A stretch of 34,737 nucleotides of DNA from assembly GCA_003599795.1 (NCBI GenBank), contig QZJQ01000042.1, positions 1 to 34,737 of the forward strand. Reading direction: 5' to 3'. The translations under genes and the position numbers were made by a program. Of the stretch, positions 1 through 32,028 are shown piece by piece. The DNA comes from Nitrospiraceae bacterium. GTDB taxonomy: Bacteria; Nitrospirota; Thermodesulfovibrionia; Thermodesulfovibrionales; UBA1546. Under the pieces are notes generated by a model. That model was not told the origin of the DNA, made no database searches, and saw only the letters and a list, made by a program, of their open reading frames with translations. Every line of letters begins with the position of its first letter. The stretch's first letter is position 1.

Positions 1-750
1 ACTTATGATATTGAAGGGATTGACTCGGCCCATAAACTTGCGATACTTGCATCGCTGGCATATGACATACCTCTTTCATTTAATGATGTTTATAAAGAGG
101 GCATAACCAGAATAACCTCTCAGGACATCGGCTTTGCAGGAGATCTGGGTTATAAGATAAAACTTCTTGCTATTGCAAAGGCTTCTGACAACAGAGTGGA
201 ACTCAGGGTTCATCCGACAATGGTTCCAAAGGATTATCTTATATCAAAGGTTGACGGTGTTTTCAATGCAATTTATGTGCAGGGAGACGCTGTAGGCGAC
301 ACCCTCTACTATGGAAGAGGCGCAGGCGATATGCCGACAGGAAGCGCGGTTGTAAGTGATGTTGTAGATATAGGGAAAAGAATCATGATACATGATACAG
401 GATACAAGATTCAGGATAAAAAATATCATGCATCGTGCATCGTGCATCGTGCATCATCAGCGCTTAAAATCAAAAAGATAGAAGACATTGAGGCTATGTA
501 TTATTTTAGGTTTACGGCATTTGACAAGCCGGGCGTTCTCTCAAACATCTCAGGTGTTCTCGGAAAGTTTAATATAAGCATAACATCTGTTATTCAGAAG
601 GGCAGGCGTCTCGGAGAGGCTGTTCCTCTGATTGTTCTTACCCATACGGCAAAAGAAAAAGATGTTGTTAGCGCTGTTGCGGAGATTGACAGGCTTTCCG
701 TTGTCGCTGACAAAACGCTCTATATAAGAGTTGAAGGAAAAGAAGAATAG
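1..750 (+). CDS. hom: Homoserine dehydrogenase, C-terminal part with ACT domain (5' end outside window)
   Basis: Frame 1 is open from base 1 (TYDIEGIDSAHKLAILASLAYDIPL...ITSQDIGFAGDLGYKIKLLAIAK...GDAVGDTLYYGRGAGDMPTGSAVVSDVVDI), the typical homoserine dehydrogenase C-terminal catalytic region, followed by an ACT domain (FTAFDKPGVLSNISGVLGKFNISI). Confidence 0.93.
   Translation, partial: TYDIEGIDSAHKLAILASLAYDIPLSFNDVYKEGITRITSQDIGFAGDLGYKIKLLAIAKASDNRVELRVHPTMVPKDYLISKVDGVFNAIYVQGDAVGDTLYYGRGAGDMPTGSAVVSDVVDIGKRIMIHDTGYKIQDKKYHASCIVHRASSALKIKKIEDIEAMYYFRFTAFDKPGVLSNISGVLGKFNISITSVIQKGRRLGEAVPLIVLTHTAKEKDVVSAVAEIDRLSVVADKTLYIRVEGKEE
384..460 (+). repeat. Bipartite heptanucleotide-period repeat element, copy A, in frame inside hom
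   Basis: CATGATAC ATGATAC AGGATAC AAGATTC AGGATAA AAAATATC ATGCATC GTGCATC GTGCATC GTGCATC ATC. Two arms of 7-nt units, roughly inverted relative to each other. A homologous copy is at 11131-11202 on the minus strand. Confidence 0.85.
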
Positions 751-8810: not shown

Positions 8811-11213
8811 TTAAATGTTTTCAGTCATTTCCCATACGCCGCAGGGGCATATTCCAGCACAGAAGCCGCATCCTATGCAAAGGTTGTCATCAACAACATA
8901 TTCATAAGAGCCGTCTTTATGTTCAACTCTGCTTATCGCTCCCCAGTAGCATGTTGCCTCACACATGCGGCAATCTCGGCATGTGGCGCAGGACATGCAC
9001 CTCTCTGCCTCTTTCTCAATGGAAAAATCACTGCGGCAGGCATCGTAGTATTCTGATTTAATTCTCTCATAGGCTATGGGCTGCTTTATCTCAGGCCATC
9101 TCGGGGCATGCATAATCTGATAGTTAATGAAGTCTGCCGCAAGCCGTCCCTGTCCTATTGCATGGGTTACAAGCCCAAGGCCTGTAGCATCTCCTATTGC
9201 ATAAACTTTCACGTCAGAGGTCTGGTAATTTTCATTGACGGTTATCCAGCCTTTTTCCGCATGAACCGAAGGAGGAAGAAAATCAAGCTGCGGCATGTCG
9301 CCGATTGCCATTACAACAAAATCTGCATCAACTGATGAACCGTCTTTGAAAAAAAGTCTGCCGGCCTTTTTGTCATATCTGTCTGTAAGCTTGGGCCAGA
9401 GCACCTGAGTACCTTTTGCCATTGCTATTCTCATCTCTTCACCGAATGCGGCAGGCTTTTGTATATCAACAGCAGTGACAGATTCTGCGCCATTATTATA
9501 TGCCTCTGAAGCAGAGTCCATTCCCACATTCCCCGCGCCAATTACAACAACTTTTTTGCCTTTGAGGTCAGGATGTTTGCCGAGATTTATATCCTTAAGA
9601 AAATCATAGGCAGACACCGTATCCTCAGAGCCTGAGAATGAAATTTTTCTCGGCTGGTGCGCTCCGCAGGCAAGGACCACAACTTCATGTCCTTTATAAA
9701 TTTCATTGAATTTGTTTTTGTCCACTTTTGTATTAAGATGCAGATTTACTCCCAGCTCCGCGAACCTCGATATTTCCTTTTCAAGTATCTCATGGGGTAA
9801 GCGCTCTCTCGGAATGCAGAGCTCAATCTTTCCTCCAAGCTTGCCTGTGGATTCATAAAGGTCAACAGCATGCCCTTTTAATGCAAGCTGCCAAGCAGCG
9901 CTCATACCTGCAGGGCCTGCGCCTATCACAGCTATCTTATGGCCCGTAGGCTTGTCTTTTTCAGGGGCAGGAAGATTAAGAGAAAGCTCTCCGAGCCTGT
10001 CTATTGCCAGCGGTTTGTCAAGCCTGGCCCTTGTGCATGCCTGCATGCAGAGGTTAGGGCATATCTCGCCGCAAACAGTTGCAGGAAGAGGGCTGTATCT
10101 TAATACAAGCTCAAGCGCCTCGTTCAGTTTTCCCTGCCGCATTAATGAGGCCCTTTTATGCGACGGGATATGTGTCGGGCATGCATATGCGCAAGGAGGC
10201 GCGTATTTTTCGTTCGCCCATAAAGGCTTGTTCCTTCTGTCAGCGCCGGTTGTGATGTATGGAAGCAATGTAAGCTCATGGTCCAGATATTCCGCAAATA
10301 AGCCTCCCTGTCCAACCTCTTTATCCCACATATTTTTTCTGAAATCGGAAGTGGACATGCCGAGCCATTTTCTACCGCGTTTTTCCTGAGGCGTATAAGC
10401 AATGAGTTTTTTCCAGTCATCAGGAGATTTTGTAAGCTCAGTTAGATAAGCTGTTCTATCAATGGCCTCAAGAAAAGGCCTCATGTTTGTCCTAAGCCAT
10501 TCCCAGTCCTGAGGCGTCAGATTCACGAGCTTTACATCTTTTTCACTGTAGCCCTGAATGGGGCCTCTGAAATATATTGTCCCGCCGACCATTCCCACGC
10601 AGGGGCGGTAGCCGAGTATGTTTTCAGGATTTCGCGGATCTACTCCGCAGACAACAGCAATGCCTCCTGCTTTGAATTCGGCAAATGAGTCTCCTACATT
10701 TCTGAAATACCATGACTGAGGAGGATTGAATCTCGGGTTATGTTTTGTCATGGTGTCGCATCTTGCACCGCCGCTTCCCTGAACGTATAAAACCCCCTGA
10801 GCGGCAGCATTGAATGCGCCGTTTGTCGCATCGCCGAGCACAGTTATCTTTGCGCCGCAGTTAATCCATCCCACATCATCAGAAACGCTTCCTTTAACGA
10901 GTATTTCAGTTCCCGGCATTCCCATGCTTCCAAGCCTCTGCCCGACAGGCCCTTCTACGGTTATGCCTACAGTCTCTCCTCTGGGCCAGATTCTTCCCCC
11001 GATGCCGTGCTGGCCGTCGGCTACTATGTGAAGCTCTCTTGCGCCTTCCTGAACTGCATGCTGTATCTGTTCCTCAAGAATACGTGAAGGAATGCGCCTG
11101 CCTTTGACAGCGCCGTGTATGGGGATAGCAGATGATGCATGATGCATGATGCATGATTCACGATTTTTTTTATCCTGCATCCTGTATCTTGTATCCTTCT
11201 TTTTAGCACGCAT
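8811..11213 (-). CDS. Fusion of glutamate synthase GXGXG domain with GltD-like FAD/NAD(P) oxidoreductase and 4Fe-4S clusters
   Basis: N-terminal GltB C-terminal-type domain (GQHGIGGRIWPRGETVGITVEGPVGQRLGSMGMPGTEILVKG), then PTHIPSHKRASLMRQGKLNEA, GAGPAGMSAAWQLA, GAGNVGMDSA and a C-terminal CIGCGFCAGICPCGV. Confidence 0.9.
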   Translation of the reverse strand: MRAKKKDTRYRMQDKKNRESCIMHHASSAIPIHGAVKGRRIPSRILEEQIQHAVQEGARELHIVADGQHGIGGRIWPRGETVGITVEGPVGQRLGSMGMPGTEILVKGSVSDDVGWINCGAKITVLGDATNGAFNAAAQGVLYVQGSGGARCDTMTKHNPRFNPPQSWYFRNVGDSFAEFKAGGIAVVCGVDPRNPENILGYRPCVGMVGGTIYFRGPIQGYSEKDVKLVNLTPQDWEWLRTNMRPFLEAIDRTAYLTELTKSPDDWKKLIAYTPQEKRGRKWLGMSTSDFRKNMWDKEVGQGGLFAEYLDHELTLLPYITTGADRRNKPLWANEKYAPPCAYACPTHIPSHKRASLMRQGKLNEALELVLRYSPLPATVCGEICPNLCMQACTRARLDKPLAIDRLGELSLNLPAPEKDKPTGHKIAVIGAGPAGMSAAWQLALKGHAVDLYESTGKLGGKIELCIPRERLPHEILEKEISRFAELGVNLHLNTKVDKNKFNEIYKGHEVVVLACGAHQPRKISFSGSEDTVSAYDFLKDINLGKHPDLKGKKVVVIGAGNVGMDSASEAYNNGAESVTAVDIQKPAAFGEEMRIAMAKGTQVLWPKLTDRYDKKAGRLFFKDGSSVDADFVVMAIGDMPQLDFLPPSVHAEKGWITVNENYQTSDVKVYAIGDATGLGLVTHAIGQGRLAADFINYQIMHAPRWPEIKQPIAYERIKSEYYDACRSDFSIEKEAERCMSCATCRDCRMCEATCYWGAISRVEHKDGSYEYVVDDNLCIGCGFCAGICPCGVWEMTENI
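11131..11202 (-). repeat. Bipartite heptanucleotide-period repeat element, copy B, in the N-terminal coding region of the glutamate synthase fusion gene
   Basis: Minus-strand reading AAGAAGGATACAAGATACAGGATGCAGGATAAAAAAAATCGTGAATCATGCATCATGCATCATGCATCATC; same architecture and strong similarity to 384-460. Peptide KDTRYRMQDKKNRESCIMHHASSA versus HDTGYKIQDKKYHASCIVHRASSA. Confidence 0.85.
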
Positions 11214-21539: not shown

Positions 21540-21575
21540 AAGTTAAAAGTTAAAAGTTAAGAGTTAAGAGTTTAA
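21540..21575. repeat. Short heptanucleotide tandem repeat (AAGTTAA-like), about 4-5 units
   Basis: AAGTTAA AAGTTAA AAGTTAA GAGTTAA GAGTTT in the divergent intergenic region between the TauE-like gene and nadE. Confidence 0.85.
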
Positions 21576-21594
21576 AAAAATAAAGATAGCCTTA

Positions 21595-21662: not shown

Positions 21663-23297
21663 ATGAAGACAATCAGGATTGCCCTGGCCCAGATTAACCT
21701 TGCTGTTGGTGACATTGACGGCAATACCCTCAAGATTTGTGATTATATACAGAGGGCAGAGGAACAAAATTCTAACATAGTCGTATTCCCCGAACTCGCA
21801 ATAACGGGTTATCCGCCCGAAGACCTCCTTCTGAAGCATCATTTCGTGGATGACAATCTTGACGCTTTAAGCAGGATTATTGAAAGAACAAAGGATATAA
21901 CTGCCATTGTCGGATTTGTTGACAGAAAAAACAGTGTTCTTTATAACGCTGCTGCGATAATTCAGAACTGCAGAATAATCGGCGTATACCACAAGGTATT
22001 TCTTCCAAACTACGGGGTATTTGATGAATACAGATACTTCAGGGCAGGGGCTGAAACCCCTGTCTATAAAATTAATAAGATGAATGTCGGAGTAAATATC
22101 TGCGAGGATATCTGGTATCCCGAAGGCCCGGCAAAATATCAGGCTCTTGCAGGCGCCGAGATTATCTTAAACATAAATGCCTCTCCCTATCATATGGCAA
22201 AGGCGCATCTGAGGGAAAAGATGGTATCTGAGAGGGCGTCTGACAATAAAGTGGCAATAGCATATCTAAACACAGTCGGAGGACAGGACGAGCTTGTTTT
22301 TGACGGAGGCAGCTTTATAGTTGATAAGACAGGCGCGATTATAGCCAGGGGAAAGCAGTTTGAAGAAGAGATGATTATTTACGAAATAGCTCTTGACAGC
22401 CCGGGACAGCCAAACAGAAGGAATATCTCCCCCCTTGCTGCATCACTTGAAGAAGAGGTTTACAAAGCGCTTGTGCTCGGCACAAGGGATTATGTGATTA
22501 AGAATGATTTTAAGAAAGCTGTCATAGGTTTAAGCGGCGGTATTGATTCTTCGCTTGTAGCCACAGTTGCGGTTGATGCCATCGGCAGGGAAAATGTCAC
22601 AGGCATCTTTATGCCTTCTCCGTATACATCCAGGGAAAGCTGTGATGACGCCTATGCACTCTCTAAAAACCTCGGCATTAAAATAATTGAGGCGCCTATC
22701 AGCAAGATACTTGAAATTTACAGGGAAAGCTTTAAAATGGAATTTAAGGGCCTTCCTGAAGATAGTACGGAAGAGAATCTTCAGGCAAGGATACGTGGGA
22801 ACATACTTATGGCGTTCTCCAATAAATTCGGGTGGCTTGTGCTTACAACAGGTAACAAATCCGAGATGAGTGTGGGTTATGCCACGCTTTACGGAGATAT
22901 GGCAGGAGGTTTCGCCGTTATAAAAGACGTGCCCAAGACCCTTATATATGAACTCTGCAAATGGAAGAACTCCAAAGAGGGCAGGGCGCTGATTCCCGAA
23001 AGAGTGCTCTGGAAAGAACCCTCTGCTGAGCTTAAACCTGATCAGAGGGATACGGATTCTCTGCCTCCGTATCCTGCCCTTGATCCGATACTCAAGGCAT
23101 ATATTGAGGAGGACAAGAGTTTTGAGGACATACCGCTGCCTTCCGGGTGCGATATTGAGTGCGCACAGAAGATTATAAAAATGATAGACAGAAGTGAATA
23201 TAAAAGAAGGCAGTCTCCCCCGGGAATAAAAATAACGCCCCGGGCCTTCGGCAAAGACAGGCGGTTTCCTATAACAAATAAGTACCGCAGTTATTAG
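21663..23297 (+). CDS. nadE: Glutamine-dependent NAD+ synthetase
   Basis: N-terminal nitrilase-type amidase (VVFPELAITGYPPEDLL; VGVNICEDIWYPEGP) and C-terminal NAD synthase (GLSGGIDSSLVATVAVDAIG; TTGNKSEMSVGYATLYGDMAGGFAVIKDVPKT). Confidence 0.96.
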   Translation: MKTIRIALAQINLAVGDIDGNTLKICDYIQRAEEQNSNIVVFPELAITGYPPEDLLLKHHFVDDNLDALSRIIERTKDITAIVGFVDRKNSVLYNAAAIIQNCRIIGVYHKVFLPNYGVFDEYRYFRAGAETPVYKINKMNVGVNICEDIWYPEGPAKYQALAGAEIILNINASPYHMAKAHLREKMVSERASDNKVAIAYLNTVGGQDELVFDGGSFIVDKTGAIIARGKQFEEEMIIYEIALDSPGQPNRRNISPLAASLEEEVYKALVLGTRDYVIKNDFKKAVIGLSGGIDSSLVATVAVDAIGRENVTGIFMPSPYTSRESCDDAYALSKNLGIKIIEAPISKILEIYRESFKMEFKGLPEDSTEENLQARIRGNILMAFSNKFGWLVLTTGNKSEMSVGYATLYGDMAGGFAVIKDVPKTLIYELCKWKNSKEGRALIPERVLWKEPSAELKPDQRDTDSLPPYPALDPILKAYIEEDKSFEDIPLPSGCDIECAQKIIKMIDRSEYKRRQSPPGIKITPRAFGKDRRFPITNKYRSY

Positions 23298-30161: not shown

Positions 30162-31133
30162 CTATTTCTTTTTTTCTTTTTCTATGACGGCTTTTTTCTT
30201 CAGCATTTCATCCGATTTTTTTTCATCGCCGGATTTACGGTAAGCATCCGACAGGGAATCAAGCGCCTCTAAAACCCCTTCTGTATCTCCTGCGCTGCTG
30301 CTTACGTCATAAGCCCTCATGTAAAACATCACGCTGTCTGGGAAATCCCCTTGTTTTAAAGAGAGCATTCCCAATCCCCGCAAGCTCATGGCGATCTTTT
30401 TGCTATTTCCAAGCTCTTTGTCTATTTCAAGGGCTTTCATATAATAAGCCTTTGATTCCGGATAATTGCCCTTCTTCGCGTTTATCTCCGCGATAAGCGC
30501 CAGGGAGTTAGCCTCCTCGCCTCTTTGTTTATTTTCAATATTCAGCTTCAGCGCGGCATTTGCCGTTTTCAGCGCTTCATCGTATTTGCCTTCCGCAATG
30601 TTAATCCTTCCCATTAGATTCCATCTGCTTCCCTCAAACATTCCCTTATTCAAAGATAATGACTTGCTCACCCAATCTTTGGCTTTCGTGATATTTTTCT
30701 CCTTTAAATAAATTCTTGCCTTCTCATACGCCGCGTCTGATCTGACGTCGTTGTTTATATCAGGCATGGAAAAGGCTATGTCTATGAATTCACGGGCATT
30801 CGGGAGATTACCTTTTTTCTGGTGGATAACGGAAATATTTATAAGATTAACGGCAATTCCCTGCGTATTTTCAATTGAACGGTTTATCTTAAGAGCCTCC
30901 ATGTAATGAGCCAATGCCCTGTCATAACTGCCCTCTTCAACGGCTTTGGCAGCCTTCTGGTTATGTTCAATTGCCTTTTCATGAATTGCAGAAAGAGTCG
31001 GAGCAGACGGGCCGCCGCAGCCGATAAACATAAAGAATAGCGCAATAGCGCAATAGCGCAGTCGCACAGTAGTGACTTTTACTCTGCTGCTCTGTTGCTC
31101 TACTGCTCCATCTTTATTCATAGCTGTCTCCAT
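30162..31133 (-). CDS. TPR-repeat lipoprotein
   Basis: Lipobox-like FMFIGCGG after a hydrophobic stretch, followed by about six TPR units ([38 protein letters not shown]). Confidence 0.85.
31036..31109 (-). repeat. Bipartite octanucleotide-period repeat inside the 5' coding region (signal peptide) of the TPR lipoprotein
   Basis: Plus strand AATAGCGC AATAGCGC AATAGCGC AGTCGCAC AGTAGTGA CTTTTA CTCTGCTG CTCTGTTG CTCTACTG CTCC; two arms of 8-nt units around an AT-rich centre. Confidence 0.8.
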
Positions 31134-32028
31134 GGATAAGGCTGTCCTTCGGTCTTTCTATAAATAGGCGTATGGGCCACGTTTGCTTCAGGGACTTCAT
31201 AACTTCATTCGTGTCACTCAGCGTATCCTCGCCTTTGTTTAGAAGCGGCGGAATCTTCGGAGCGGCTTTTTCCACGGCATCCTTGAGATTCGCAGTTGTT
31301 TTCTCTGCATTGTCCATGGTCCTGTTGAGCTTATCAATCACAGGATTTATTTTCTCGTTCATGGACGAAACGGTTTTATCAATATTTTTAAGGGTCTTTG
31401 AAGCATCAGAAGAAACACCTGAAATATTACTGTCGGCGTTCTTTAAGAGCTTGTCAACACTCTCCTTTGTTGCATTAAGTCCGGCAGACAGTGTTTTAAG
31501 GTTTGCAAGGGTCTGTTTTATGTCGCCTTTCGGGTCATTGACGTAGCCTATTATATCTCGTATCTCGTTCAGCACAGGCTTAACTTCTTCAGCGATGTCT
31601 TCCAACCCCCGGGTTTTTTCAAACTTTATCGCAGAGTCATCCTTTAAAACAGGCTTGCTCTGATTTCCCACAGTAACATCTATAACTGTCTCCCCTACAA
31701 AGCCTTCTTTAGTGAGTATTGCCCTGGAATCCTCTCTTATCCATTTACCGTATTTCCTGCTGATTAAAAGCGTAACCTTTACCTTTGCATGTTCATCAAG
31801 CGACAGCGAGTCTATCTTTCCAATTTTAAAACCTGAGAGTTTGACAGGCATCCCTTCAAAAAATCCCGTGCCTTTATCAACCGTAAAATAAATTTTATAC
31901 TTAGCCGTAAACAGGCCGCGTTCAATCCCGATAAAAACTACTGTAGCTATTATCCCTATAACTGCGGCAATAAAAAATAATCCGACTTTTCCTGTCAGGC
32001 TCGCGAACCTCGGGTCAGTTTCTTTCAT
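31114..32028 (-). CDS. MlaD/MCE-family lipid transport protein
   Basis: Single N-terminal TM then MCE domain (YKIYFTVDKGTGFFEGMPVKLSGFKIGKIDSLSLDEHAKVKVTLLISRKYGKWIREDSRAILTKEGFVGETVIDV). Confidence 0.92.
   Translation of the reverse strand: MKETDPRFASLTGKVGLFFIAAVIGIIATVVFIGIERGLFTAKYKIYFTVDKGTGFFEGMPVKLSGFKIGKIDSLSLDEHAKVKVTLLISRKYGKWIREDSRAILTKEGFVGETVIDVTVGNQSKPVLKDDSAIKFEKTRGLEDIAEEVKPVLNEIRDIIGYVNDPKGDIKQTLANLKTLSAGLNATKESVDKLLKNADSNISGVSSDASKTLKNIDKTVSSMNEKINPVIDKLNRTMDNAEKTTANLKDAVEKAAPKIPPLLNKGEDTLSDTNEVMKSLKQTWPIRLFIERPKDSLIHGDSYE

Follow-up and report, generated by a model that had tools for sequence, protein, structure and literature searches.

The Rickettsia palindromic elements (RPE) are sequence families of 105-150 bp with terminal inverted repeats, and the Nitrospirota elements described here resemble them in being short and palindromic, dispersed between genes as well as in frame in conserved protein genes, with the ORF kept open (PMC2229807, PMC10969869). 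In-frame insertion into conserved protein genes, a feature of RPE, was indeed found here. Unlike RPE, with which they were compared by architecture, the Nitrospirota elements are paired tandem arrays of 7- or 8-mers from many unit families, their sites are refilled by different families and their N-terminal copies form predicted signal peptides. The enterobacterial case of RU-2/YPAL fused in YPO1552 concerns a single element at a single locus, which Y. pestis shares with Y. pseudotuberculosis (Delihas 2007, PMC2759123), whereas the Nitrospirota pattern involves different repeats in many genes and species, including core envelope proteins such as TolB. The open-access papers that we searched contained no report of recurrent signal-peptide replacement by tandem-repeat elements, RU-2/YPO1552 being the only precedent among them. 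Dispersed degenerate heptamer arrays, often two convergent ones forming an inverted repeat, are shared with the GGGAATC heptamers of Xanthomonas and Nostoc (PMC4692102) and with the cyanobacterial STRR. Dispersed, degenerate head-to-tail heptamers of the STRR type are present, with octamers and paired arms in addition, but the Nitrospirota elements have many unit families of 7 and 8 bases and are often intragenic. The TAACTGA repeats of Beggiatoaceae are likewise dispersed heptamer direct repeats, some within ORFs at protein edges; they have a single unit, hardly ever have an inverted partner (a single indirect repeat was reported) and were interpreted as regulatory (PMC4679880). Finally, phase-variable simple sequence repeats are also tandem, close to the 5' end of ORFs and made of units not divisible by three, whereas the Nitrospirota units are degenerate, set in paired inverted arms and replaced by other families.

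The window, that is, the whole stretch of DNA analysed here, comprises 34,737 nucleotides from a Nitrospiraceae bacterium (genome G000 below). It carries the gene of a TPR lipoprotein, with mlaE, an ABC ATPase gene and mlaD upstream and trmD downstream (Pfam). A two-arm octamer element codes for most of the predicted signal peptide of this lipoprotein, and the features of the locus are as follows.

30162..31121, minus strand: TPR lipoprotein gene (Pfam TPR_12, E 6.5e-28)
31114..32028, minus strand: mlaD, upstream of and overlapping the TPR lipoprotein gene (Pfam MlaD, E 8e-13)
31020..31121, minus strand: predicted signal peptide of 34 residues (orthologue comparison)
31017..31019, minus strand: lipobox Cys codon, FIG/C (Cys invariant in 16 orthologues)
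31035..31109, minus strand: whole two-arm octamer element (TRF arrays, six other copies in its own genome, homologues in G001 and G003)
31078..31109, minus strand: purine-rich left arm, GGAGCAGT AGAGCAAC AGAGCAGC AGAGTAAA, coding for the polar n-region (sequence, TRF 31082-31108)
31071..31077, minus strand: centre AGTCACT, which forms with AGAGTAAA the tip of a predicted, weak DNA hairpin (z = -2.0)
31035..31070, minus strand: right arm, ACTGTGCG ACTGCGCT ATTGCGCT ATTGCGCT ATTC (sequence, TRF 31036-31060)

The minus-strand octamer sequence quoted in an earlier note on this DNA proved exact at 31035-31109, and TRF called both arrays, one at 31036-31060 (period 8, 100% matches, score 50) and one at 31082-31108 (period 8, 84% matches, score 40). 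The 25-residue reading given there ahead of the lipobox was also right, and the anatomy of the element is slightly larger than first described. In register, left units AGAGCARY (31109-31086) and a right arm resembling their reverse complement (31070-31035) enclose AGAGTAAAAGTCACT; the split is GGAGCAGT AGAGCAAC AGAGCAGC / AGAGTAAA AGTCACT / ACTGTGCG ACTGCGCT ATTGCGCT ATTGCGCT ATTC, the right units being similar, not identical, to the reverse complement. The right arm codes for approximately 11 residues, which complete the n-region and make up the initial half of the h-region. By simple home-made rules, the leader has the attributes of a lipoprotein (SPII) signal peptide, namely a positively charged n-region, a hydrophobic h-region and a lipobox Cys near the N-terminus. 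Translation probably starts at the ATG at 31121-31119, within the last codons of mlaD, with a GGAG six bases upstream (31131-31128). The earlier note had considered that the actual start might lie downstream of the repeat; the upstream ATG is backed by the conserved overlap with mlaD, by the GGAG (in the window's genome and close relatives) and by five orthologues without an alternative start before the Cys. In the window's genome, a GTG at codon 19 may serve as a minor start. Annotators should bear in mind that N-termini derived from such repeats can be real.

A repeat-encoded leader of 31-53 residues was found at the TPR lipoprotein in 14 of the 16 family genomes, and the two others (G009, G010) have ordinary leaders of 21-23 residues. 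At least seven kinds of leader elements occur at this gene among the family genomes. G001 and G003 have homologues of the octamer element at this site, with 91-93% identity over the leader, and the octamers are common to G000, G003 and G001. Beyond the family, a GCAATAG-type element occupies the TPR site in two genomes from another family of the same order (G026, G037), and six other order-level orthologues have ordinary leaders. That the repeat supplies residues of the n- and h-regions in an export signal, as proposed before, is therefore supported at the level of sequence, since element-free relatives have ordinary leaders and 14/16 family genomes repeat-encoded ones. Nor do the orthologues share the same N-terminus without a nucleotide repeat; most of them differ there, the N-terminus being built from another nucleotide repeat. 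These leaders are probably functional, judging from the conserved downstream genes, the open frames in every orthologue and the five cases that lack an alternative start. Because 7- and 8-base units are not multiples of three and sit at the 5' end of the ORF, the locus might instead be a phase-variable contingency locus in which the gain or loss of units shifts the frame and toggles export, and near-N-terminal repeats have been discussed as phase-variation candidates (PMC4692102). We consider this highly improbable, as the reading frame is open through the array in every surveyed TPR and TolB orthologue, degenerate units should lower slippage, and the affected genes include some, TolB among them, whose products are presumably always required.

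Far from being unique, the octamer element belongs to a family with many copies across the genome. Using it as a blastn query, we found six other copies, dispersed in its own assembly and laid out alike. Two copies (L004, L006) sit between the arms of a heptamer element; a third (L005) encodes the leader of what we take to be another lipoprotein, and a fourth (L003) is in frame in the linker of a presumably CobB/CbiA-like protein (names by sequence recognition). The genome-wide search for octamer tandems proposed in the earlier note had a mixed outcome, the exact GCGCTATTGCGC pattern occurring only at the TPR locus and the AGAGCAGY/ACTGCGCT family being dispersed. In approximately 410 kb of the window's genome, TRF called 84 period-7 and 30 period-8 arrays, compared with 0 and 1 after one first-order Markov shuffle, hence the octamer arrays are far beyond chance. 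The total of period-7/8 arrays was 114 in G000 (410 kb), 64 in G001 (400 kb) and 5 in G009 (360 kb), against 1, 1 and 2 after shuffling, in samples that represent approximately 16-29% of each genome and with array calls that depend on TRF thresholds. Merged array clusters numbered 88 in G000, 48 in G001 and 7 poor ones in the array-poor G009, or 21.5, 12.0 and 1.9 clusters per 100 kb, with 16.5 in G005; gene calls followed simple home-made rules, and the metagenome-assembled genomes (MAGs) are incomplete, that of the window being 75% complete. A single-assembly artefact is unlikely because the named relatives are Nitrospirota/Thermodesulfovibrionales MAGs from different studies. Many unit families are involved (GATACAG/GATGCAC, GTTAAAA, AGAGCAGY, GGGATTG, AGGGTTCG, GTCAAAG, GGTGAAT and others), and the same unit families were found at many unrelated loci of one genome. 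The window also holds one array of a different layout.

21540..21576, strand unspecified: single-arm AAGTTAA array, intergenic (TRF)

This array has no obvious partner arm and lies upstream of an ORF at 21663, apparently an NAD synthetase. The window's assembly also contains two RecA genes of full length (G000:C32:12031 and G000:C61:436), which may mean a contaminating contig.

The arms of the elements are related and polar. Across 58 adjacent array pairs, the similarity of the left unit to the reverse complement of its partner was 0.71, compared with 0.53 for random partners (p 2e-9), and in none of the 58 were the two identical. Perfect hairpins were ruled out, as the units of the two arms always differ and single strands fold weakly, very much so in some elements (z 0.34 for GTGTCAG/GTTCACT). 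By a simple majority rule, the purine-rich arm came first in 53 pairs and last in 1, with a ratio of 22:0 for intergenic pairs. Both strands of an inverted repeat show the purine-then-pyrimidine order, so this polarity is independent of orientation. When the real elements were translated in six frames, 21% of the open readings were signal-like (polar and basic in the first half, hydrophobic and uncharged after it), compared with 0% after swapping the arms and 2.7% after shuffling. Shuffling within each arm left the proportion at 21%, so polarity and not repetition carries the effect, and the key property is the order of purine arm, then pyrimidine arm. The octamer design put forward earlier therefore stands as a two-arm repeat; unit length does not stand as its key property, internally shuffled arms being equally signal-like. 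Among intergenic elements alone, hydropathy followed the polar-then-hydrophobic order in 88% of readings, and 3 of 21 open readings passed the signal-like test. The second half of element-made leaders had a mean hydropathy of +1.7 (TPR) and +1.5 (TolB) versus -0.6 for hand-picked internal elements (p 2e-9, with rows that are not independent). Each element comprises a purine-rich 7- or 8-base array, a centre rich in A/T and a pyrimidine-rich array whose complementary units are similar, never identical; in either orientation, a stop-free reading tends to give a polar and often basic segment and then a more hydrophobic one. Such polar-then-hydrophobic coding, arising from purine-to-pyrimidine repeat polarity in either orientation, would offer a concrete route for the rise and fast turnover of export signals, and the origin and rapid divergence of signal peptides become testable questions.

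Same-site turnover was seen inside genes as well as at leaders. Two heptamer sister elements of the window occupy such sites.

387..455, plus strand: heptamer sister element GATACAG/GATGCAC, in frame in the homoserine dehydrogenase-ACT linker (TRF, Pfam)
11132..11197, minus strand: heptamer sister element at the N-terminus of a GXGXG-motif/pyridine nucleotide-disulphide oxidoreductase ORF (8811-11213; TRF, Pfam)

The homoserine dehydrogenase slot contains GATACAG in G000, GATGCAG in G001 and GTCAGGA in G005, the first two being related, and the N-terminal slot at 11132-11197 contains GATACAG, GTCAAAG and AAGTTAA in the same three genomes. An internal slot of GuaA holds CCCAACG or AAAATTC (comparison of G000, G001 and G005). 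In-frame insertions were recognized in homoserine dehydrogenase by Pfam and in proteins that we take, by sequence recognition, to be GuaA, CobB-like and CbiB-like. Among orthologous sites of these three genomes, some were filled in one and empty in another, some had the same array, and many had unrelated families; the filled/empty sites were found by flank matching, a BLAST gap scan having mostly missed long insertions. The dispersed copies and the filled/empty orthologous sites are shared with MITEs. As for MITE-type terminal repeats, the element arms are inverted but imperfect (0/58 identical), and no target-site duplication was evident at the filled/empty pairs on inspection by eye. A search for the Y1 transposase of REPIN/RAYT systems (PF01797), the one family searched, gave no match in the array-rich, element-bearing genomes G000, G001 (100% complete) and G003; a Y1/RAYT link was ruled out, as Y1 presence does not track the arrays. 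The filled/empty pairs suggest that the elements move as DNA. In an observation of a different kind, genomes of different families have an in-frame GTTCACT array at one shared position of a CbiB/CobD-like protein (L166, L267, L270 and G005:C29:72014), the content of this slot being conserved.

Arrays might also stay in place at each locus and change their units by slippage and concerted evolution, no insertion being involved. At some sites the array is indeed retained with minor changes (G000_C1 24545 and G000_C5 25553, each compared with G005), and the TPR octamers are common to G000, G003 and G001. Such drift is nonetheless improbable, given the filled/empty sites, the occurrence of the same unit families at many unrelated loci of one genome, and the unrelated unit families at one site in species with 93% identical flanks. 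Indeed, the TPR-leader elements of G001 and G005 are unrelated between flanks that are 93 and 92% identical, as are those of G013 and G011 (flanks 89 and 90% identical). On the flank tree, at least 12 changes of element type were counted at the TPR lipoprotein, with types labelled by eye and several branches poorly supported. The reverse situation also exists, as the GTGTCAG/GTTCACT element is 89-91% identical between G002 or G004 and G014, which belongs to another genus, with flanks only 75-77% identical (G004 vs G014: element 91%, flanks 77 and 75%). This would be expected if whole signal-peptide cassettes were exchanged between species horizontally or by gene conversion rather than newly inserted. 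We find such exchange unlikely, since the tract would be some 110-130 bp long with divergent flanks, and since GTTCACT remnants beside other elements at the TPR leader of G006 and G007 suggest that this element is ancestral and was partly overwritten.

We read the repeats as in-frame insertion elements that have repeatedly been overwritten at fixed slots and some of which were apparently exapted as signal peptides. Taken as a whole, the explanation by a dispersed, insertion-like repeat family, of which copies serve as signal peptides and whose slots are refilled by other unit families, is probably correct. Copies within genes would persist where they are in frame and tolerated, as in interdomain linkers and at protein ends, and a copy at the N-terminus of an exported protein could itself act as a signal peptide, the TPR lipoprotein being a likely case. 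An occupied site behaves as a slot that other unit families fill in relatives, with little change in the flanking gene. Composite sites, in which octamer elements lie between heptamer arms, AGGGTTCG arms surround a GTCAAAGT pair or unrelated palindromes occupy the centre of TolB leaders (G002, G007; all read by eye), together with the GTTCACT remnants at the TPR leader of G006 and G007, suggest how replacement may proceed, possibly through insertion into or beside the old element, at its centre, followed by loss of the old arms. An automated search for concentric nests of four arrays gave no clean case, the nesting being drawn from the examples read by eye. Together, the findings point to a mechanism by which 7/8-mer inverted arrays are produced and replaced at fixed Nitrospirota sites. 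Separately, palindromes were noted in or near several elements. A palindrome of type AAGGGGGGATTAAAGGGGGA is central in the repeat-encoded leaders of the G008 TPR lipoprotein (L105) and the G002 TolB (L199), two unrelated loci, as if the centre were an insertion target. Another, around TCGCCTGAGGCGA, recurs next to or inside elements at L209 (G007 TolB), L006, G000:C1:4753 and G000:C2:22597.

Repeat-encoded leaders are not restricted to the TPR lipoprotein. TolB, fetched through its Pfam domain and picked after it had appeared among the matches rather than at random, has leader arrays in 15 of 16 genomes, in many unit combinations, with none in G009; in G154, from another family of the order, the TolB leader is again repeat-encoded. 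A DNA search with one element, in which genes were not chosen, matched leaders of proteins that we assign by sequence to TolB, SurA-like, LolA, DacC-like, LptE, ApbE, BtuF-like and two pilin-type proteins, as well as in-frame sites in presumably CobU-, CbiB-, AspS- and MurG-like proteins. No arrays were found in BamD, which has an ordinary lipoprotein signal peptide (0/13 genomes), or in RecA (0/14 genomes). For CpoB/YbgF, the Pfam match begins far downstream of the signal peptide and is uninformative for leader arrays.

Three measures of the link between arrays and export disagree in size. Lipoprotein candidates carried arrays in 6 of 15 cases in G000 and 4 of 11 in G001, versus 3.0 and 1.9% of random windows, a count biased by the fact that a hydrophobic-coding repeat helps a gene to qualify, with a few candidates probably not lipoproteins. 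By manual reading, approximately 17 of 21 in-frame N-terminal arrays were on exported proteins. When exported genes were defined from the array-poor G009, N-terminal arrays were present in 4/29 orthologues compared with 5/110 non-exported ones (odds ratio 3.4, one-sided p 0.09), the TPR lipoprotein being counted three times. The view that all signal peptides are affected was ruled out by BamD and by the G009-defined test. A minority of exported genes is affected, and the TPR lipoprotein and TolB, which were examined family-wide, are affected in nearly every species.

This modest enrichment among independently defined exported genes, together with the arrays that lie in linkers and at the ends of cytosolic enzymes, would also fit passive tolerance, in which weakly constrained signal peptides accept any hydrophobic repeat, there is no special slot and recurrence reflects only permissive sites. 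Such tolerance is a plausible reading that falls short of probable, as the ordinary lipoprotein signal peptide of BamD is free of arrays in 13 genomes, compared with 15/16 for TolB and 14/16 for the TPR lipoprotein, and as the content of a given internal site varies in both GuaA and homoserine dehydrogenase. The same contrast between BamD, TolB and the TPR lipoprotein indicates that slots are gene-specific. The further proposal that a process writes 7- and 8-base arrays, purine arm first, into fixed slots and repeatedly replaces their content, such that some envelope-protein signal peptides would be exchangeable modules and not inherited, is a tentative one that we regard as rather doubtful. 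As a last observation, three neighbouring pilin-like genes of G001 with GFTLIE-type leaders (G001:C15:352730, 353415 and 353992, the last being L073) were noted; in each of them, a GATACAG-type element immediately precedes the likely site of prepilin cleavage.
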